64,000 nucleotides of DNA. Source: Ruania albidiflava DSM 18029. Its GTDB lineage: Bacteria; Actinomycetota; Actinomycetes; Actinomycetales; Beutenbergiaceae. The translations under genes and the position numbers were made by a program. The notes beneath the pieces were generated by a model that was given only the letters and a program-made list of their open reading frames with translations, was not told the DNA's origin and made no database searches. The stretch is taken from positions 124,001 through 188,000 of the forward strand of contig NZ_ATWL01000006.1 of assembly GCF_000421225.1 (NCBI RefSeq), read 5' to 3'. Numbering within the stretch: position 1 is the stretch's first letter; each line of letters opens with the position of its first letter. Positions 14,392 through 34,426 of this stretch are shown here, piece after piece.

Positions 14392-15825
14392 ATGGAGCAT
14401 GCCGTCTCGCTGGCCACCCTCACCCCGCCGATCGCCCTCGGCCCGCTGGACGGGCGCTACCGCACTGTGGTGGCCCCCCTGGTGGACCACCTGTCCGAGG
14501 CTGCACTGAACCGCGCCCGGCTGCACGTGGAGGTGGAGTGGCTGATCCACCTGACCACCCAGCGTGTGCTGCCCGGCGCCCCGGAGCTGTCCGAGCAGGA
14601 GACCGGCTACCTGCGCCAGGTGGTGCGCACCTTCGGTGCCGACGAGATCGCGGAGCTGGCCGCGATCGAGGCGGAGACCCGGCACGACGTCAAGGCCGTG
14701 GAGTACTTCCTCAAGCGGCGTCTGGCCGCCGCACCGCAGGTGCTCGGCCCGGACACGGTGCTGCCCCAGGTGACCGAGATCGTGCACATCTTCTGCACCA
14801 GCGAGGACATCAACAACCTGAGCTATGCCACCACGGTGCGCGACGCCGTCGAGCAGGTGTGGTTGCCGGCGGCGACAGCAGCGGCTGACGCCGTGGCCGA
14901 CCTGGCCCGGGAGCACGCCGACGTACCGATGCTCGCCCGCACCCACGGGCAGCCGGCCACCCCGGTGACCCTGGGCAAGGAGCTCGCGGTGCTCGCGCAC
15001 CGGCTGCGCCGGCAGCTGCGCCGGATCACCGCCGCCGAGTACCTGGGCAAGATCAACGGTGCCACCGGCACCTACGGGGCGCACAGCATCTCGGTGCCCG
15101 GCGTCGACTGGCAGCAGGTGGCGCGCAGCTTCGTGGAGCACCTGGGCCTGGTCTGGAACCCGCTGACCACCCAGATCGAGAGCCACGACTGGCAGGCGGA
15201 GGTGTACGCGGACGTCGCCCGGTTCAACCGGGTGCTGCACAACCTGACGACCGACGTGTGGACCTACATCTCGCTGGGCTACTTCACCCAGCGCCTGTCC
15301 GCCCAGGGCTCGACCGGTTCGTCCACGATGCCGCACAAGGTGAACCCGATCCGGTTCGAGAACGCGGAGGCGAACCTGGAGGTCTCCTGCGCGCTGCTGG
15401 ACAGCCTGGCCAGCACGTTGGTGACCTCCCGGCTGCAGCGGGACCTGACTGACTCCACCACCCAGCGCAACATCGGGGTGGCGCTGGGTCACTCGCTGCT
15501 CGCCCTGGACAACGTGCGCCGCGGGCTGGCCGGCCTGGACGTGGACACCGAGGCGATGGCCCGCGACCTGGATGCGAACTGGGAGGTGCTCGGCGAGGCG
15601 GTGCAGTCGGCGATGCGCGCTGCCGGGATCGCGGGCGTGACCGGGATGGCCGACCCGTACGAGCGGCTCAAGGAGCTCACCCGTGGCCGGCGGGTGGACG
15701 CTACGGCGATGCGGGAGTTCATCTCCGACCTGGGGCTCCCGCAGGAGGTGGCCGCGCGGCTGCTGGCGCTGACCCCGGGCGACTACGTGGGTCTGGCCCC
15801 GGAGCTGGTGCGGCACCTGGACTGA
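14392..15825 (+). CDS. purB: Adenylosuccinate lyase
   Basis: This 477-aa fumarase/aspartase-superfamily enzyme cleaves fumarate from adenylosuccinate and from SAICAR in purine synthesis. The signature GSSTMPHKVNP lies at 309-319, with Ser310/Ser311 on the catalytic loop; the N-terminus LGPLDGRYR and ARTHGQPATPVTLGKE are characteristic of the E. coli-like long form. The reading frame continues far upstream but MEHAVSLATLTPP at 14392 is the natural start. GATGAT six bases upstream suggests a leaderless message. Confidence 0.94.
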   Translation: MEHAVSLATLTPPIALGPLDGRYRTVVAPLVDHLSEAALNRARLHVEVEWLIHLTTQRVLPGAPELSEQETGYLRQVVRTFGADEIAELAAIEAETRHDVKAVEYFLKRRLAAAPQVLGPDTVLPQVTEIVHIFCTSEDINNLSYATTVRDAVEQVWLPAATAAADAVADLAREHADVPMLARTHGQPATPVTLGKELAVLAHRLRRQLRRITAAEYLGKINGATGTYGAHSISVPGVDWQQVARSFVEHLGLVWNPLTTQIESHDWQAEVYADVARFNRVLHNLTTDVWTYISLGYFTQRLSAQGSTGSSTMPHKVNPIRFENAEANLEVSCALLDSLASTLVTSRLQRDLTDSTTQRNIGVALGHSLLALDNVRRGLAGLDVDTEAMARDLDANWEVLGEAVQSAMRAAGIAGVTGMADPYERLKELTRGRRVDATAMREFISDLGLPQEVAARLLALTPGDYVGLAPELVRHLD

Positions 15826-22850: not shown

Positions 22851-23162
22851 ATGACCACCCAGCAGACGCTCACCCATGCCGAGCACGGCTACACCCCCGA
22901 GAAGGATGCCTACCTGAAGCGGATGCGGCGGATCGAGGGGCAGGTCCGCGGGATCGAGCGGATGGTGGCCGAGGACGTCTACTGCATCGACGTGCTCACC
23001 CAGATCGCCGCAGTCACCAAGGCTCTGCAGGCCGTCGGCCTGGGCCTGCTGGAGGACCACCTGGGCCACTGCGTGGTGGACGCCGCCCGCACCTCCCACG
23101 AGGCCGGTGAGGAGAAGGTGAAGGAGGCCTCCGCCGCCATCGCCCGCCTCGTCCGGTCCTGA
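22851..23162 (+). CDS. csoR: Copper-sensing repressor CsoR
   Basis: This 103-aa all-helical repressor (DUF156) carries the Cu(I) ligand triad Cys45, His70 and Cys74 in YCIDVL and DHLGHC, the C-H-C pattern of true copper sensors, and the RRIEGQVRGIERM motif of the DNA-binding helix. The ATG at 22851 was chosen for its AGGAGG; in-frame ATGs at about 22806-22820 lie within the operator. It is followed at 31 bases by copZ. Confidence 0.92.
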   Translation: MTTQQTLTHAEHGYTPEKDAYLKRMRRIEGQVRGIERMVAEDVYCIDVLTQIAAVTKALQAVGLGLLEDHLGHCVVDAARTSHEAGEEKVKEASAAIARLVRS

Positions 23163-23193: not shown

Positions 23194-23415
23194 GTGACCA
23201 CCACCGTCATCGACGTCCAGGGCATGACCTGCGGCAACTGCGTCAAGCACGTGACCGAGGAGCTGACCGGTCTGACCGGCGTCAGCTCTGTGGAGGTGGA
23301 CCTGAACGCCGGCGGCATCTCGCCGGTGACCGTGACTTCCACCGACCCGCTGGACGAGGCGACGCTGCGGGAGGCCGTGGACGAGGCCGGCTACGAGGTC
23401 ACCGCGATCCGCTGA
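23194..23415 (+). CDS. copZ: Copper chaperone CopZ
   Basis: This 73-aa heavy-metal-associated domain protein has the metal-binding loop GMTCGNC (Cys13, Cys16) and a ferredoxin-like fold. It should carry Cu(I) to an exporter and to CsoR. The GTG start has GAAGGAG upstream. The P-type exporter CopA that normally completes the operon is absent here; a strong terminator follows directly. Confidence 0.92.
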   Translation: MTTTVIDVQGMTCGNCVKHVTEELTGLTGVSSVEVDLNAGGISPVTVTSTDPLDEATLREAVDEAGYEVTAIR

Positions 23416-26286: not shown

Positions 26287-27084
26287 GTGCCCCACCAGCC
26301 CGCACCCCTGGAGAGGTCTCGGTCCCGCCGTCTGACCGCGGAGATCTGGATCGTGATGGGTCTCTCGCTGGGCAAGTCCGGGGTGTACGCGGTGGTGGCG
26401 ATCATCGCGGCCCTGACCCGCGGCCCGCTGGGCGAGCAGACCACCTCTCTGAACCCCTCGCAGTCGCCACGGCCGTATCTGGACCTGACCTACCAGCTGC
26501 TGTCCATCGCCTTCACCCTGGTACCGGTGGCCCTGGCGCTGTACCTGCTCTCCGACCGGGGTCACAACCCGTGGCGCCGGATCGGCCTGGATGCCCGCCG
26601 TCCGGGCCGGGACCTGCTCTGGGGCGTGGGCCTCGGCGCAGTGATCGGCATCCCGGGCCTCGGTCTGTACGTGGCCGGTCGTGCGCTCGGGATCACGGTG
26701 GCGGTGCAGGCCTCTGCGCTGGACCCGTACTGGTGGACCGTGCCGGTGCTGGTCCTCGCCGCCCTGAAGAACGGGCTGATCGAAGAGGTGGTGGTGGTCG
26801 GCTACCTGGCCGAACGCCTGACGGAGAAGCGCTGGTCACCGGTCGCGATCGTGCTGCTCTCCGCCGTCATCCGTGGTTCCTACCACCTGTACCAGGGCTG
26901 GGGGCCGTTCTTCGCGAACATGCTGATGGGTGTGATCTTCGCATCCTTCTACCTGTCCAAGGGTCGGCGGCGGGTGCTGCCGCTGGTGGTCGCGCACACG
27001 TTGCTGGACGTGACCGCGTTCGTCGGTTACCAGCTGCTGCCCGAGGAGTGGTTGACGGCGATCGGCGTGAGCGTCGCCGGCTGA
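26287..27084 (+). CDS. CPBP-family intramembrane protease (CAAX protease-like)
   Basis: This 265-aa membrane protein has about seven helices. The conserved Glu-Glu pair lies at 166-167 in LIEEVVVVGYL, and a His of the second motif at 200 in GSYHLYQG, both within helices as in CPBP/Abi proteases; a third motif VAHTLLDV carries another His. The GTG start has TATAAC ending five bases upstream. It is followed by the large membrane pseudokinase protein. Family members cleave peptides in the membrane or act in bacteriocin immunity; the target is unknown. Confidence 0.82.
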   Translation: MPHQPAPLERSRSRRLTAEIWIVMGLSLGKSGVYAVVAIIAALTRGPLGEQTTSLNPSQSPRPYLDLTYQLLSIAFTLVPVALALYLLSDRGHNPWRRIGLDARRPGRDLLWGVGLGAVIGIPGLGLYVAGRALGITVAVQASALDPYWWTVPVLVLAALKNGLIEEVVVVGYLAERLTEKRWSPVAIVLLSAVIRGSYHLYQGWGPFFANMLMGVIFASFYLSKGRRRVLPLVVAHTLLDVTAFVGYQLLPEEWLTAIGVSVAG

Positions 27085-27199: not shown

Positions 27200-29941
27200 A
27201 TGGCTGAGGGGACCGCCCAGGAACCGCCCGCAGGCGGCCGGGTGCGCACGACCACCGTGCTGGACATTCCCCTGGTCCGGGTACGCCGGCCGATCGACCT
27301 GGTGCTGATGCTGGCCACGGTCGCCGGGTTGGCGGCGGTGCTGGTGCTGTCGGTGTACGCCTACCGCACCACCACTGCGGTCACGCTGGACGTGCAGTCG
27401 GCGCTGGCCCGGGTGCTGCGGAACATCCTGCTGGTGCCGGTCAATGCGATCGAAAGCTTCCTCACCCTGATCCTGCCGATCGTGGTGATCGTGCAACAGC
27501 TGGTCCGCCGGCAGGTGCGCGCCGTGGTGGACGCACTGGCGGCAGCGCTGGTGGCGATCCTGGTGACCAGCGCAGCGGTATGGCTGTTGAACAGCTATGC
27601 ACCGGAGGCGATGCTGCGTGCGCTGCGGCTGCACAACGGTGTCGAGCTGGTGATGACCATCACCCCGATGGTGGCGGGCCTGGCGGCGTTCCTCACCGGC
27701 ACCGGCACCCGGGACGAGAGCCGACTGGTGGGCATCTCCTGGAACCTGCTCTGGGTGGTGCTGGTGGTCTCGGTGATCGCCGGTGACTCCACGCTGACCG
27801 GGGCGATCGTCTCCGTGCTGCTCGGCCGGGCGGTGGGCCTGGGGATGCGGTACGCCTCGGGCGTGCTCAGCCGCCGCGCGCACGGCCAGGTGCTGGTGGA
27901 GGGCATCCGCCGCGCCGGGGTCGATGCGGTGAGCGTGATCCGGATCGGTGACTCCACAGACACCGCCAGCCTGCAGAGCGAGTCCGTCGTGGCCGCCAAC
28001 CCGATCGGGTACGTCCCGGCCAGCGCACCGCAGAGCACGGTCGACGACGGCACAGCCAGCTTGCCCCACCAGCCCACCTCCAGCGATGGTGCTCGGGCAG
28101 GCGCGCCGCCGGCGGATGGGGGCCTACCGGCGCAGCAGGAAGCGCCCGGTCCGCGGCCAGCCGCAGCGCAGCGGGGCGCAGCAGCTGCGCAGCCGGCCCG
28201 CTCACCCGCACCGCTGATGACGGACGCGACACCGGACCACGTCCAGGAGTCGGCCACGGTCGCCACCGAACGCGAGGGCGCCAACCGGGTCTACGCCGTC
28301 ACCGACACCGACGGACGCCGCTGGGACGCCGTCGTGCTCGATGCCGACCGGCAGGTGATCGGCTGGTTGAACGGTCTGATCACCACCCTGACCCGGCGTG
28401 GTCTGGACCGGCGCACCTCGGTGAGCCTGCGGCAGAGTGCCGAACGTGCCTCGCTGATGTACTACGCGGCTGCGGCCGCGGGGGTGAACTGCCCGCGGTT
28501 GCACGGCATCGCTGAGGCCGGGGCGTCGGTGCTGCTGCTCGGCGAGCACGTGCCGGATGCCCGCCAGCTGGCCGACGTGCCCGACGCTGTGATCACCGAC
28601 GAGGTGATGATGAACGCCTGGGAGCAGCTGCGGATCGCGCACACCGCCGGGCTCGCACACCGGAACATCTCCGCCGACACGGTGTACGTGGTCACCTCCG
28701 GTACGGCGGAGAACCAGGTGTGGCTGAACGGCTGGGAGGAGGGCGAGATCGCCGCAACGTCGTTGGCGCGCCGGGTGGACCTGGCCCAGCTGCTCACCCT
28801 GTTCGCGCTCCGCGTGGGTCCGCAGCGGGCGATCGCGGCAGCCTCGCGGTCGCTGTCGATCGCCCAGCTGGCGGAGATCGCCCCGTTGCTGCAGCCGATC
28901 GCCCTGCCGGCGCAGACCCGCGCCGCCGCCCGGGCGAACAAGGCCGGCATGTCCACGCTGCGGGCACACCTGGTGGACTTCATCCCGACGGCGAGCGAGG
29001 TGGCGCCGATCCAACTGGCCCGGTTCAACGCGCGCACGGCGATCACGCTCACCGTGGCCGTGGTCGCCGGCTGGATCCTGCTCACCACGTTGAACTTCGA
29101 GACCATCGCCGAGGTGGTCGCAGACGCCAACCCGGTGTGGATGGTGGTGGCATTCGGCTGCGGGATGCTCACCTTCCTGGGTGCGGCGCTCGGGCTGGTC
29201 GGGTTCTCCCCGGACCGGCTCGGGCTGTGGCGCACTGTGGTGGTGCAGATGGCCTCATCGGTGATCACCCTCGTGGCACCGGCCGGGGTGGGTCCGGCGG
29301 CGCTGAACCTGCGGTTCATGCAGAAGCGTGGGGCTGCGACCCCGATGGCGGTGGCAACCGTGGCGCTGCTGCAGGTGTCCCAGTTCGTCACCACCGTGCT
29401 GCTGCTGGTCGTCATCGCGCTGCTCACCGGGTCCTCCGGACCGTTGCAGCAGGTGCCCTCCGGTGCGGTGCTCATCGGTGTGGGCGTGGTGCTGGTGCTG
29501 GCCGGTGTGCTGCTGGCGGTCGGTTCGCTGCGCCGCTGGGTGGTGGCCAAGGTGCGCCCCACGCTGCAGCAGGTGTGGCCGCGGCTGGTGTGGGTGATCG
29601 GGCAGCCGCACCGGTTGGCGATGGCGCTGGGCGGCAACCTGCTGATGACCGTGGGCTACCTGGCGGCGTTCGCCGCGTCCCTGGCGGCGTTCGGGCAGTC
29701 GCTGCCGCTGGCGTCGCTGGCGATCGTGTACCTCACCGGTAACGCGGTGGGGGCGGCAATCCCCACTCCCGGCGGTATCGGCACTGTGGAGCTGACGCTG
29801 TCCACCGGGCTGACCACCGCGGGCATCGCCACCGCGGCAGCGGCCTCGACCGCAGTGCTGTTCCGGGTGCTCACGTTCTGGATCCGGGTGCCGCTCGGCT
29901 GGTGGGCACTGCGCCACCTGCAGCGGCAGAACCTGCTCTGA
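27200..29941 (+). CDS. Membrane protein with embedded pseudokinase and LPG-synthase-type flippase domain
   Basis: This 913-aa protein has three parts. Residues 20-220 form about six membrane helices. After an Ala/Pro-rich linker (about 240-355) comes a kinase-like domain (355-600) in which the catalytic loop reads HRNISADTV (His487), with Asn where the catalytic Asp should be, and the metal loop reads LNGWEEG instead of DFG/DWE. Residues 610-910 form the eight-helix lysylphosphatidylglycerol-synthase membrane domain (PF03706/UPF0104; VAPAGVGPAALNLRF, GGIGTVELTLS). No aminoacyl-transferase domain is present. ATG 27200 has TACCAT ending seven bases upstream; a GTG at 27122 is an alternative. 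Confidence 0.78.
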   Translation: MAEGTAQEPPAGGRVRTTTVLDIPLVRVRRPIDLVLMLATVAGLAAVLVLSVYAYRTTTAVTLDVQSALARVLRNILLVPVNAIESFLTLILPIVVIVQQLVRRQVRAVVDALAAALVAILVTSAAVWLLNSYAPEAMLRALRLHNGVELVMTITPMVAGLAAFLTGTGTRDESRLVGISWNLLWVVLVVSVIAGDSTLTGAIVSVLLGRAVGLGMRYASGVLSRRAHGQVLVEGIRRAGVDAVSVIRIGDSTDTASLQSESVVAANPIGYVPASAPQSTVDDGTASLPHQPTSSDGARAGAPPADGGLPAQQEAPGPRPAAAQRGAAAAQPARSPAPLMTDATPDHVQESATVATEREGANRVYAVTDTDGRRWDAVVLDADRQVIGWLNGLITTLTRRGLDRRTSVSLRQSAERASLMYYAAAAAGVNCPRLHGIAEAGASVLLLGEHVPDARQLADVPDAVITDEVMMNAWEQLRIAHTAGLAHRNISADTVYVVTSGTAENQVWLNGWEEGEIAATSLARRVDLAQLLTLFALRVGPQRAIAAASRSLSIAQLAEIAPLLQPIALPAQTRAAARANKAGMSTLRAHLVDFIPTASEVAPIQLARFNARTAITLTVAVVAGWILLTTLNFETIAEVVADANPVWMVVAFGCGMLTFLGAALGLVGFSPDRLGLWRTVVVQMASSVITLVAPAGVGPAALNLRFMQKRGAATPMAVATVALLQVSQFVTTVLLLVVIALLTGSSGPLQQVPSGAVLIGVGVVLVLAGVLLAVGSLRRWVVAKVRPTLQQVWPRLVWVIGQPHRLAMALGGNLLMTVGYLAAFAASLAAFGQSLPLASLAIVYLTGNAVGAAIPTPGGIGTVELTLSTGLTTAGIATAAAASTAVLFRVLTFWIRVPLGWWALRHLQRQNLL

Positions 29942-30066
29942 ACCCGAGCTGACCGGGCGGTCCTGCGCACCCTCGTCACCTGCATCTGGGCAGGGTCGCG
30001 GGGTTGTAGGGTGAGGGTCGCAAGGGGCTGGCAACCGGTGGACGACACAATCTGAGGCGGTGGACG

Positions 30067-31215
30067 ATGGCGGTCAGTTTCCGCTACGCCGTGCGCACCG
30101 ATCTCGGCACCGTCCGCACCAACAATGAAGACTCCGCGTTCGCCAGCCCGCGGCTGCTGGTGCTCGCCGACGGTATGGGTGGGCATGCTGCGGGCGAGGT
30201 GGCCTCCGCCGTGGCGCTGCGGGTGTTCGCCGAGGTGGACCACCGCGAGGGAGCCGAGCTGGCGCCGGAGTTCCTCCGCGCCGGACGGCTGGCTCGCCGT
30301 GCCCTGTTCGCGATGTCCGAGGCGGACCCGCTGCTGGAGTCGATGGGCACCACGCTGGTCACCGTCGGCTCCGATGGTGACCGGGTCAGTGTCGGGCACA
30401 TCGGCGACTCCCGGGTGTATGCGCTGCGCGACGGTGCGCTGTACCAGCTCACCACCGACCACACCCACGTGCAGCGGCTGATCGACAGCGGTGAGCTCAC
30501 TCCCGAGCGTGCCCGCACCCACCCGTACCGGTCGATGCTGCTGAAGTCCTTGGACGATCAGCCGGCGGGGCCGGACCTGGACATCATCGAGGCACAGATC
30601 GAGCCCGGTGACCGGGTGCTGCTCTGCTCCGACGGGCTGTCGGACTACCTGGAGCCGGACGTCATCGGAGCCACGCTGATGGCACCCGACCGGGAGCAGG
30701 CGGCCGCAGACCTGATCGAGGCTGCGCTGTCCGTGGGCACCCGGGACAACGTGACCGTGGTGGTCGCCGACGTGGTCACCGATGACGAGCAGCCCGACGG
30801 CCGGCCCCCAGGCGGCGCACCGGTGGTCGTCGGTGCCGCTGAGGACGGGGTATCCCTGTCCGCTGAGGCGGCGGCTGCGCTGCGCGGCTGCCTGCCCGAG
30901 GTGCCGTTCGACGCCACAGCGCCGATGGCCGGCGTCCGCGGTCTTGCCGCAGCCAGCGGCGACGACCAGAGCAGCCACACCCCGGTGAGCGAGCAGACCG
31001 AGGAGGCTGCGCTGTCGTCAGCGACCTCACCGAAGACGAGGCCGACCGGACCGACCGGGACGGCCACGGCCCGCAGCGAGACCGCTGGTGCTCCCAGGGG
31101 CACCGACCCGGACGTCGTGCCGGTCCCGCAGACGCCCTCGAGCTCCCTCCCGGGTGTGCTGGCGGCTGCGGCGGTGGTGGTCCTGGTAGCGCTGCTCTAC
31201 CTGCTGCTCGGCTGA
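30067..31215 (+). CDS. PP2C-family Ser/Thr phosphatase, PstP-like
   Basis: This 382-aa phosphatase has the PP2C metal motifs RTNNEDSAF, LADGMGGHAAGE, GHIGDSRVY, LCSDGLSDYL and TRDNVTVVV (residues 15-235). A disordered segment follows and a C-terminal membrane helix (350-380), so the catalytic domain faces the cytoplasm. PstP normally opposes PknB-type kinases in cell-wall control, but this gene is not in a pknAB/ftsW cluster; it follows the pseudokinase protein by 125 bases. GAGGCGG precedes the ATG. Confidence 0.88.
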   Translation: MAVSFRYAVRTDLGTVRTNNEDSAFASPRLLVLADGMGGHAAGEVASAVALRVFAEVDHREGAELAPEFLRAGRLARRALFAMSEADPLLESMGTTLVTVGSDGDRVSVGHIGDSRVYALRDGALYQLTTDHTHVQRLIDSGELTPERARTHPYRSMLLKSLDDQPAGPDLDIIEAQIEPGDRVLLCSDGLSDYLEPDVIGATLMAPDREQAAADLIEAALSVGTRDNVTVVVADVVTDDEQPDGRPPGGAPVVVGAAEDGVSLSAEAAAALRGCLPEVPFDATAPMAGVRGLAAASGDDQSSHTPVSEQTEEAALSSATSPKTRPTGPTGTATARSETAGAPRGTDPDVVPVPQTPSSSLPGVLAAAAVVVLVALLYLLLG

Positions 31216-32498: not shown

Positions 32499-33860
32499 CT
32501 ATGAGCTGGGCCGTTGCCCCGTGGCCGGTTCTCGGGTGGTGGTGAAGATGCGGGCAGTATCACCGGAGAGCGCGAGCATCACCAGGATCTCCAGGGCAGA
32601 GCCGAACACCTGCGTGGCGAGCGTGGACTCCGGCGCACCGGTGATCCAGAGCACCACATACGTGCCGACGCTGATTGCGCTCAGGGTGAGGGTGAGCATC
32701 CGTGCTCGGTTCGCGCGCCGGAAGATGAACACGGAGAGCACCAGGTAGGCGAGCAGGTAGGCCGCCAGCACCGACCGCACCACCACGGAGAGGACATCCG
32801 GTGGCACACCGGCGTCGAGCAGTGGGCCCACCACCTTCAGGTCGGCGATCCCGAGAGTCGTCAACGAGGCCAGCCAGGACAGCGACACCACCCCCACTGC
32901 CACCCGCAGCAGCATCAGGAACAGTCCGAACGCCACGGTCAGCGGTACTGCGCGCCGGTGCCGGCCCTCCGCCTCGTCGGCCCGGATCGTCTCGAGGATC
33001 TCCGGTGTGGGCGGTCGGGTCTGCCGCAGGTCAACGATCGGCAGGTCGCCGTCGGTGCGGATCGCGTCGCCGCCGCCGTTGCGGTGGTGGTAGCCGGTGG
33101 AGAAGTTGCGCAGGTGGCGCACGGTGATGCCGTGGTTCCCGGAGCTGGGGGCGGTGAGCGTGCCGAGCACGTGGTCCCGCTCGGCGTCGATGTCCGCGTC
33201 GATCCGGTGGGTGAACTGCAGGGTGAAGTGGGACAGCCCGACCGAGCGGTCGTAGGTGCCGGCGGCGAGCCAGTCCACCTTCTTCCCGCCGGGCAGCCGC
33301 CAGCCCTGCGGGCACGCCCAGAACCGCACGTGGTGCCGCTGGGCGGGGTTCCCCTCCACTTCCTGCTGGTAGGTGAACGCCTGCCGGGAGCTGAACAGGA
33401 ACAGCGGACTCACCGGAGCGTCCGGGTAGCTGCGCCGCAGCAGGGTGGCCAGCACCATCCGGCGTCCGGACTCCAGGTTCACCTCGTCCGCCCGGTGCCA
33501 GCCAGCGCGGATCATCGCGGTGTGCAGCTGCTCCACCGTGCCGCGGAAGCCGAGGTTCACCGGGTCACCGAGCAGCCCCTCCCGGGTGCGGGACCGACCG
33601 ATGAAGTAGTTCGGCACGTACACGCGGGTCAGCAGCGAGTGCAGGCGGGGCAGCAGCAGGTAGGTGACGATCAGCCAGAACGGGATGAACGCCCACAGGT
33701 GCCGCCAGCCGGCGGTGACCAGCTGGTGGATGAGCAGGAACGCCAGCCAACCGGATGCGAGGGTCGCCAGGACGAAGAACACCTGGTCGGCGAACCGGAC
33801 CGGGTTCTCCTGCACCACTCCTACAGCGGCATGCGCGCGCTCGCTGAGCGTACGGGCCAT
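32499..33860 (-). CDS. LssY C-terminal-domain membrane protein
   Basis: This 453-aa protein has two helices near the N-terminus (25-70), a soluble LssY_C-type domain (about 80-275; FIGRSRTREGLLGDPVNLGF, RRSYPDAPVSPLFLF, DRSVGLSHFTLQFTHRID shown in part) and four to five C-terminal helices (295-430). LssY_C proteins are of unknown function, sometimes linked to phosphatase-fold membrane proteins. TACGGT ends seven bases before the ATG. The longer frame to 34403 lies over the divergent MmcQ gene. Confidence 0.72.
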   Translation of the reverse strand: MARTLSERAHAAVGVVQENPVRFADQVFFVLATLASGWLAFLLIHQLVTAGWRHLWAFIPFWLIVTYLLLPRLHSLLTRVYVPNYFIGRSRTREGLLGDPVNLGFRGTVEQLHTAMIRAGWHRADEVNLESGRRMVLATLLRRSYPDAPVSPLFLFSSRQAFTYQQEVEGNPAQRHHVRFWACPQGWRLPGGKKVDWLAAGTYDRSVGLSHFTLQFTHRIDADIDAERDHVLGTLTAPSSGNHGITVRHLRNFSTGYHHRNGGGDAIRTDGDLPIVDLRQTRPPTPEILETIRADEAEGRHRRAVPLTVAFGLFLMLLRVAVGVVSLSWLASLTTLGIADLKVVGPLLDAGVPPDVLSVVVRSVLAAYLLAYLVLSVFIFRRANRARMLTLTLSAISVGTYVVLWITGAPESTLATQVFGSALEILVMLALSGDTARIFTTTREPATGQRPSS

Positions 33861-33947
33861 GGGCACTACCGTATCCCGGTCCCGAAGCAGACCCGCCCCG
33901 CGGTTCTGCGCACGACGGGCAGCAGCTCTTGGCATCATGGGCACTCG

Positions 33948-34385
33948 ATGGCGCACCCACAGATGTTCGACGACGACGATCCCTACCTGGCCAGGGCCCG
34001 CCGGGTGGCGTTGGCGTTCCCGGACGCGACCGAGAAGGTGGCGCACGGCCGCCCGACGTTCCGGTCGCAGAAGGTGTTCGTCGTCTACGGCGGCGGCACG
34101 AAGGGTCCTGCCCGCAACCGGGTGCGCTACGACCACGCGCTGCTGCTCCTGCCAGATCCGGCGGAGCAGCCAGCCCTGGCCGAAGACCCCCGCTCGTTCG
34201 TGCCCGCCTACTACGGGCCGTACGGGTGGATCGGCTGGAACCTGGCGCACGACGGCACGGCGCCAGACCAGGTGGACTGGGCAGAGGTCTTCGAGCTGGT
34301 GGACTCCTCCTACCGGGCGCTGAGCAGCGCGGACCAGGTGCGCCGACTGGACGAGACCGGGCTGACGCCGTCGGACTTCGGATAA
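33948..34385 (+). CDS. MmcQ/YjbR-family protein
   Basis: This 145-aa protein matches MmcQ/YjbR (PF04237): ARRVALAFPDATEKVAHGRPTF at the start and the WIGWNLAHDG and VDWAEVFELVDSSYR C-terminal motifs. The fold resembles a DNA-binding double-wing but molecular function is unproven. It is divergent from the LssY_C gene with an 87-base gap. A region CATCAT lies nine bases before the ATG. Confidence 0.82.
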   Translation: MAHPQMFDDDDPYLARARRVALAFPDATEKVAHGRPTFRSQKVFVVYGGGTKGPARNRVRYDHALLLLPDPAEQPALAEDPRSFVPAYYGPYGWIGWNLAHDGTAPDQVDWAEVFELVDSSYRALSSADQVRRLDETGLTPSDFG

Positions 34386-34426
34386 CCTCTGACCATCATG
34401 CACAGGTCTCGTGGCACAATTCCTTG

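Follow-up and report, generated by a model that had tools for sequence, protein, structure and literature searches.

What is a membrane domain of the lipid-flippase type doing on the same polypeptide as a kinase-like domain that has lost its catalytic residues? The question is raised by a 913-residue protein of Ruania albidiflava DSM 18029, encoded in a 64,000-nucleotide stretch of contig NZ_ATWL01000006.1 (positions 124,001 to 188,000) that we refer to, in its entirety, as the window. As described below, the protein appears to be a three-domain fusion, in which a helix bundle of the PAP2 phosphatase superfamily and a domain of the protein-kinase superfamily, both stripped of their active sites, are joined to a membrane domain like that of MprF. 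We regard it as an evenly balanced proposition that the protein is a lipid transporter of the MprF type in which both ancestral enzymes have become non-catalytic regulatory or scaffold parts, partnered by an intramembrane protease of the CPBP family. The fusion and its parts are as follows.

27200..29941, plus strand: 913-residue fusion of a pseudo-PAP2 bundle, a pseudokinase and an MprF-type flippase domain (open reading frame from an ATG)
27284..27883, plus strand: N-terminal helix bundle, residues 29-228, a degenerate PAP2 phosphatase (six helices by hydropathy; hhalign)
27950..28249, plus strand: linker, residues 251-350, fast-evolving by the ratio of nonsynonymous to synonymous substitution rates (dN/dS)
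28265..28987, plus strand: kinase-like domain, residues 356-596, catalytic residues gone (profile and motifs)
28658..28666, plus strand: HRN motif replacing HRD, residues 487-489
29042..29899, plus strand: PF03706 flippase domain (Pfam) at residues 615-900, for which hydropathy gives eight helices
29789..29791, plus strand: Glu864, putative match of RtMprF Glu280 and SaMprF Asp254 in the inter-cavity gate
29864..29866, plus strand: Arg889, putative match of RtMprF Arg304 and SaMprF Arg279

Two degenerate enzyme domains joined to an MprF-type membrane domain

PF03706 was the sole Pfam match above cut-off in the fusion (97.6 bits, cut-off 33.4), and the protein ends 13 residues past it. The NCBIfam profile for MprF (NF033480) scored 41.1 bits, where its cut-off is 600, and was matched at positions 11-285 of 841 only. 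The synthase half of MprF is therefore absent, and comparison with this profile revealed no aminoacyl-transferase or synthase part. An earlier note on this DNA, made from the letters alone, had thus been right about the eight-helix PF03706 domain, the lack of an aminoacyl-transferase and the kinase-like domain without its catalytic Asp. It had also recognized the N-terminal helix bundle, for which six helices are predicted, but had missed its degenerate PAP2 identity. The reading frame is not a chance one, since the fusion is present in all eight Ruania genomes, that of R. albidiflava included (the match lies in two pieces in two of them); the nearest named record that we found, at 72%, is from Ruania rhizosphaerae.

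A Pfam scan gave no PAP2 match for the window protein itself, and it was the comparison of profiles by hhalign that placed the bundle. The set of window-type bundles matched the set of intact PAP2 domains from relatives at 81.5% (E 1.1e-5), as did sets of the Streptomyces type (97.5%, E 6.8e-12) and the Mycobacterium type (97.7%), and the window-type set matched the Streptomyces-type set at 99.7% (E 2.2e-25). Three kinds of control (the PAP2 profile in reversed order, CPBP, and the flippase domain cut into halves) reached at most 1.7% with the window-type set and 3.5% with the Streptomyces-type set. The profile of the N-terminal domain of intact members in turn matched the PAP2 phosphatases LpxE (7.2e-15), YodM (2.2e-10) and PgpB (4.1e-6) in the Protein Data Bank (PDB). 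For the kinase-like domain, the profile of dead domains (A4) matched that of intact ones (A5) at 100% (E 1.6e-48). We conclude from these profiles that the bundle belongs by descent to the PAP2 superfamily and the kinase-like domain to the protein-kinase superfamily.

What kind of kinase the ancestor was is less plain. Intact or partly intact relatives matched the Pfam families Pkinase, Kdo/WaaP, APH and RIO1, some of them above cut-off, and a weak model of the kinase domain came nearest to WaaP, PRPK/Bud32 and RIO2, with no Foldseek match at E <= 0.001. Descent of the kinase-like part from a Hanks-type signaling kinase is therefore not clear. The window protein had no phmmer match in the PDB at E <= 1, and the AlphaFold models, built from an alignment of the window protein, L002 and L003 only, were poor; the assignment of PAP2 and kinase folds therefore rests on sequence profiles. 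Hydropathy puts six helices N-terminal and eight C-terminal to the kinase-like domain, and the even number before it would place that domain in the cytoplasm, an argument limited by the fact that the same crude count finds fewer helices in three relatives (L007, L130 and L122).

Loss of both active sites among the relatives

A profile (A1) made from six members was run over genomes of the order, where 171 of 198 matched at E <= 1e-3, many of them partially; long matches, among the matches listed, came from families f1, f3, f4, f9, f10 and f19. The same profile, run over genomes of the phylum, matched 45 of 296 (that of R. albidiflava counted) at E <= 1e-40. A plasmid search returned six records, all actinobacterial (Actinomyces oris, Nonomuraea, Streptomyces, two of Mycolicibacterium, and Nocardia), and scans of viral contigs found no relatives. 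For closer study we assembled 102 loci: the window, L002, L004-L007 and 96 fetched stretches that were hand-picked to span families and paralogues and are thus a non-random sample. Four pairs among them are near-duplicates, more than 95% alike (L002/L078, L004/L089, L082/L083 and L141/L142). The window's own family, f1, contributes 15 orthologous loci from six genera; judging in part from near named relatives and gene content, f20 is probably Streptomyces-like, f21 Mycobacterium-like, f4 Bifidobacteriaceae-like and f3 Actinomycetaceae-like.

The catalytic motifs of PAP2 phosphatases are KxxxxxxRP, SGH and RxxxxxHxxxD. In a single alignment of the 102 loci we scored nine PAP2 residues, counting a site as intact if at least eight were kept, and four kinase residues (the beta-3 Lys, the HRD Asp, the loop Asn and the DFG Asp), all of which an intact site had to keep. 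The window protein retains one of the nine and none of the four: aligned to intact relatives, its beta-3 Lys is replaced by Val, the HRD Asp by Asn, the loop Asn by Thr and the DFG Asp by Gly. By these residues it would be neither a catalytic PAP2 phosphatase nor an active kinase. In this it has much company, as neither site is intact in 86 of the loci, a number that includes L162, a flippase-only protein with neither domain, and L156, which is mostly gapped across the columns of the bundle.

Sixteen loci make up the remainder. Both sites are intact in six (L007, L130, L131, L136, L138 and L168), the kinase site only in five (L128, L129, L132, L135 and L139) and the PAP2 site only in five (L148 and L163-L166). 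Because L168, which has HGD instead of HRD, lacks a PF03706 match, five loci rather than six keep all three parts, and two of these (L130 and L131) are 91% alike. In L136, PAP2, Pkinase, APH and PF03706 all exceed their Pfam cut-offs; in L130 and L138, PAP2 and PF03706 do so, with Pkinase slightly under. L007, on a plasmid of Mycolicibacterium vanbaalenii, displays all three PAP2 motifs and matches PAP2 (3.7e-20), Pkinase (4.5e-6, under cut-off) and PF03706. L164 is above cut-off for Kdo/WaaP, and L163 and L168 are for RIO1. In the dead members L111, L122 and L142, only PF03706 passes. Kinase-intact and dead paralogues coexist in some genomes (L128, L129 and L140 in G344; L134 and L135 in G445).

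Two further observations concern PAP2. On the plasmid of M. vanbaalenii, the triple fusion is immediately preceded by a separate PAP2 gene (L007:4368-5000). Also, L163, L164, L165, L166 and L168 encode PAP2-kinase proteins in which the family match ends ahead of the flippase domain; all five have an intact PAP2 site, and the kinase residues are incomplete in four.

Selection and history

Evidence that the dead kinase is nonetheless constrained came from comparisons of the window protein with six f1 relatives. The dN/dS of the kinase-like domain (0.13-0.27) was close to that of the flippase domain (0.15-0.24), with higher values for the N-terminal bundle (0.20-0.38) and the linker (0.46-1.07); against L081, for example, the dead kinase gave 0.133 and the flippase 0.147. 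Such low ratios indicate that the kinase-like domain is under purifying selection, most clearly in the window's family; pairs from other families are less clear.

A tree was built from 90 flippase domains, omitting five near-copies, L162 and six loci in which too little of the domain was present. In it the window falls within a clade of 39 rows comprising f1, f3, f4, f9, f10 and f19, with a starred value of 100 in the SH-like approximate likelihood ratio test (SH-aLRT). Over the whole tree, which was made by a quick method, has long branches and is unrooted, the PAP2 state would have changed at least two times and the kinase state at least four. The earlier note had named the retention of catalytic residues by homologues as a finding that would speak against its proposal. 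Indeed, 11 of the 102 relatives keep all four kinase residues, yet all 39 rows of the window clade are doubly dead.

The flippase core and its putative gate

In RtMprF, Glu280 and Arg304, and in SaMprF, Asp254 and Arg279, form a gate between two lipid cavities (PMC8131360). Their putative counterparts in the window protein, Glu864 and Arg889, are both kept in 94 of the 96 members that bear a transmembrane domain, the exceptions being L148 (Asp/Arg) and L154 (Ser/Gln). The equivalence was judged from profile coordinates (residue 895 falls on NF033480 position 285) and from spacing rather than by direct alignment. That this pair is kept even though the enzyme residues are lost fits a working transport core, as does the description of MprF of Pseudomonas aeruginosa (PaMprF) as a promiscuous scramblase (PMC11980842). 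A profile of the transmembrane domain had no match in the PDB at E <= 10.

On the account that we favor, the ancestor would have been a three-in-one machine in which a PAP2 lipid phosphatase facing outward and a kinase in the cytoplasm, perhaps a lipid or sugar kinase or one of another atypical group, were combined with a flippase or scramblase. Both enzymes would have lost their catalytic residues in the lineage of the window while the architecture of the chain was kept. The flippase core may still move lipid across the membrane, and the pseudo-phosphatase and pseudokinase could serve it as non-catalytic parts for lipid binding, docking or gating. These dead domains probably work with the neighboring CPBP protease and, in f1 alone, with PP2C as well.

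Several observations weigh against this account. By themselves, the N-terminal bundles of the f4 type (1.3%) and the f10 type (6.5%) barely match PAP2. In all five pairs taken from other families, dN/dS was higher for the kinase-like domain (0.21-0.32) than for the flippase (0.12-0.24). As for the gate, PaMprF tolerates changes of the pair, which is dispensable there for transport (PMC11980842), changes of the pair in RtMprF raised activity, and the losses seen in SaMprF may reflect destabilization (PMC11980842, PMC8131360).

The best-surviving alternative is that the protein transports nothing, its membrane domains merely anchoring a pseudokinase that recruits envelope proteins. There is precedent in the pseudokinase of MviN, which is joined to a membrane protein that peptidoglycan synthesis requires, has a scaffold role and recruits FhaA (PMC12599244). 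The purifying selection on the dead kinase would be expected of a scaffold too, and the neighboring CPBP and PP2C proteins are possible partners. A mere anchor sits less well with the retention of the gate pair in nearly every member despite the loss of the enzymes, although the dispensability of the pair in PaMprF blunts the objection. We consider a pure scaffold possible but doubtful, and continue to prefer a transporter governed by its dead domains.

Neighboring genes as probable partners

Two genes on the same strand frame the fusion, as the earlier note had stated.

26287..27084, plus strand: CPBP (Rce1-like) intramembrane protease, upstream (PF02517, 57.1 bits)
30067..31215, plus strand: PP2C phosphatase, downstream (PF13672), with a C-terminal hydrophobic segment read from the sequence

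We compared flanks of about 7 kb, or up to the contig end, so that the absence of a neighbor means its absence within that stretch. A CPBP gene was found in the flanks of 30 of 43 orthologous loci (15/15 in f1, 6/6 in f9, 3/3 in f19, 4/5 in f10, 2/10 in f3 and 0/4 in f4), and in 23 of these 30 it overlapped the open frame of the fusion or lay less than 400 nucleotides from it. The flanks of the 8 paralogous and 51 other loci contained no CPBP match. All 30 CPBP neighbors keep the Glu-Glu, His and His residues. The usual CPBP motif, EExxxR, includes an Arg, and at its position the 30 neighbors have Val or Ala.

PP2C follows the fusion in all 15 loci of f1, across six genera. Outside f1 it was matched in the flanks of just one of 87 loci, the distant PAP2-kinase locus L164, which lacks the flippase. 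We therefore view the pairing as what looks like an addition at the level of the family, and reject PP2C as a general partner; by gene order, CPBP is the deeper and broader one. The earlier note had proposed that the dead kinase senses a ligand or phosphoprotein and gates the flippase as a signaling unit next to PP2C. The fusion, the catalytic loss and the selective constraint on the kinase agree with it, and the PP2C linkage holds within the window's family but fails as a general rule. A stricter form of that proposal makes pseudokinase and PP2C the core: the dead kinase would sense a phosphoprotein, PP2C would reset it, and the flippase would be gated. The genome contains three PP2C and seven Pkinase matches. 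Apart from the PP2C beside the fusion, both are found no more than about 4 kb from Pkinase matches (contigs C4 and C7), and none of the seven is on the contig of the window, a pattern that, together with the invariant pairing in f1, suits such a unit. The near absence of PP2C from the other loci does not, nor does the resemblance, albeit weak, of the kinase part to WaaP, Bud32 and RIO, and we judge this unit unlikely to be the core of the system. Finally, we hold it very unlikely that the dead domains are passive relics retained only for the folding and insertion of the chain, as the absence of both active sites from most loci, the fast linker and the five pairs from other families might suggest, given that f1 shows a low dN/dS for the kinase-like domain and that a cytoplasmic domain should be more easily lost than kept.

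A possible lipid ratchet

A bolder scheme, to which we give only a small chance, concerns the members in which all parts are intact. These would be candidates for an ATP-driven lipid ratchet, in which a lipid is phosphorylated inside, crosses by way of a passive scramblase and is dephosphorylated outside by PAP2; repeated later losses of one or both enzymes would have led to scramblases governed by pseudo-enzymes, the window protein among them. Such a ratchet, if real, would achieve net one-way transport without a pump. The family forms a natural series that runs from three intact domains to the double pseudo-enzyme and includes single losses of either enzyme, and it does so in a phylum in which envelope lipids matter. 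Two questions become testable with it: how a lipid scramblase is governed by pseudo-enzymes, and whether a passive one can be driven by phosphorylation and dephosphorylation on opposite sides.

Relation to known systems

The fusion shares with MprF, a lysyl- or alanyl-phosphatidylglycerol synthase-flippase, the PF03706 translocase domain and an acidic-Arg pair at a matching place, and in both an enzyme domain is part of the chain as well. It differs in that we found no aminoacyl-transferase and in that PAP2 and kinase domains, both dead here, stand on the N-terminal side instead. When 149 actinobacterial genomes were searched for the flippase half of a true MprF, four matched the profile at E <= 1e-80, all from position 317 or later and none above cut-off. 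MviN is a MurJ-type flippase that is not known to carry a PAP2 domain. In mycobacteria it is likewise a pseudokinase (ActPs3) fused to a flippase-type membrane protein (PMC12599244). It belongs to another flippase family, and the window protein has no MurJ/MviN-type Pfam match; since PF03706 alone passes cut-off, we rejected membership. ActPs2 pseudokinases are described as having Arg for the beta-3 Lys, HRN, usually a deletion of DFG, and two inserts in about 90% of members (PMC12599244). Compared with this description, the window protein shares HRN but has Val at beta-3 and lacks the activation-loop insert of about 250 residues, and we rejected membership here as well. From the Kdo/WaaP, APH and RIO/Bud32 kinases it differs by the loss of its catalytic residues and by its joining to membrane domains.

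A similar translocase without a synthase domain is Rv0204c of mycobacteria, which is reported to bind MmpL3 and MmpL11 in a screen of the two-hybrid type; the passages that deal with it describe a translocase domain alone and mention no PAP2 or kinase part (PMC6656915). The genes gro4 and gro6 of gromomycin clusters carry a similar product name (PMC13010261) and could belong to this family. Among the matches listed by our searches of an open-access library, none described the fusion; a preprint on PplT-domain proteins, cited in PMC11980842, may already describe such fusions, and we claim no priority.

Other genes of the region

In the flanks, purB was found at 3, 4, 2 and 2 loci of f4, f10, f19 and f3, respectively, and hup at three loci each of f4 and f9. 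In three f4 loci purB adjoins the fusion, in four f10 loci it lies 0.8 to 3.1 kb off, and in the window a purB-like gene (14392-15822) is located about 11 kb upstream. The positions of purB suggest that the gene order around the fusion is, in part, anciently shared. Nearer to the fusion in the window are genes that we named by eye as csoR-like (22851-23159, plus strand) and copZ/HMA-like (23194-23412, plus strand). Genes for CsoR, CopZ and P-type ATPases are a recurrent feature of the surroundings of the fusion in f1, f3 and f9 loci, and the L007 plasmid carries P-type ATPases. We did not adopt a copper response as the function, given that only csoR and copZ are near the fusion in the window and that the linkage may reflect shared old gene order. 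Lastly, a membrane protein with an LssY_C domain is encoded on the minus strand of the window (32499-34403), and such a gene lies near the fusion in 9 of the 102 loci (window counted), all of them in f1.

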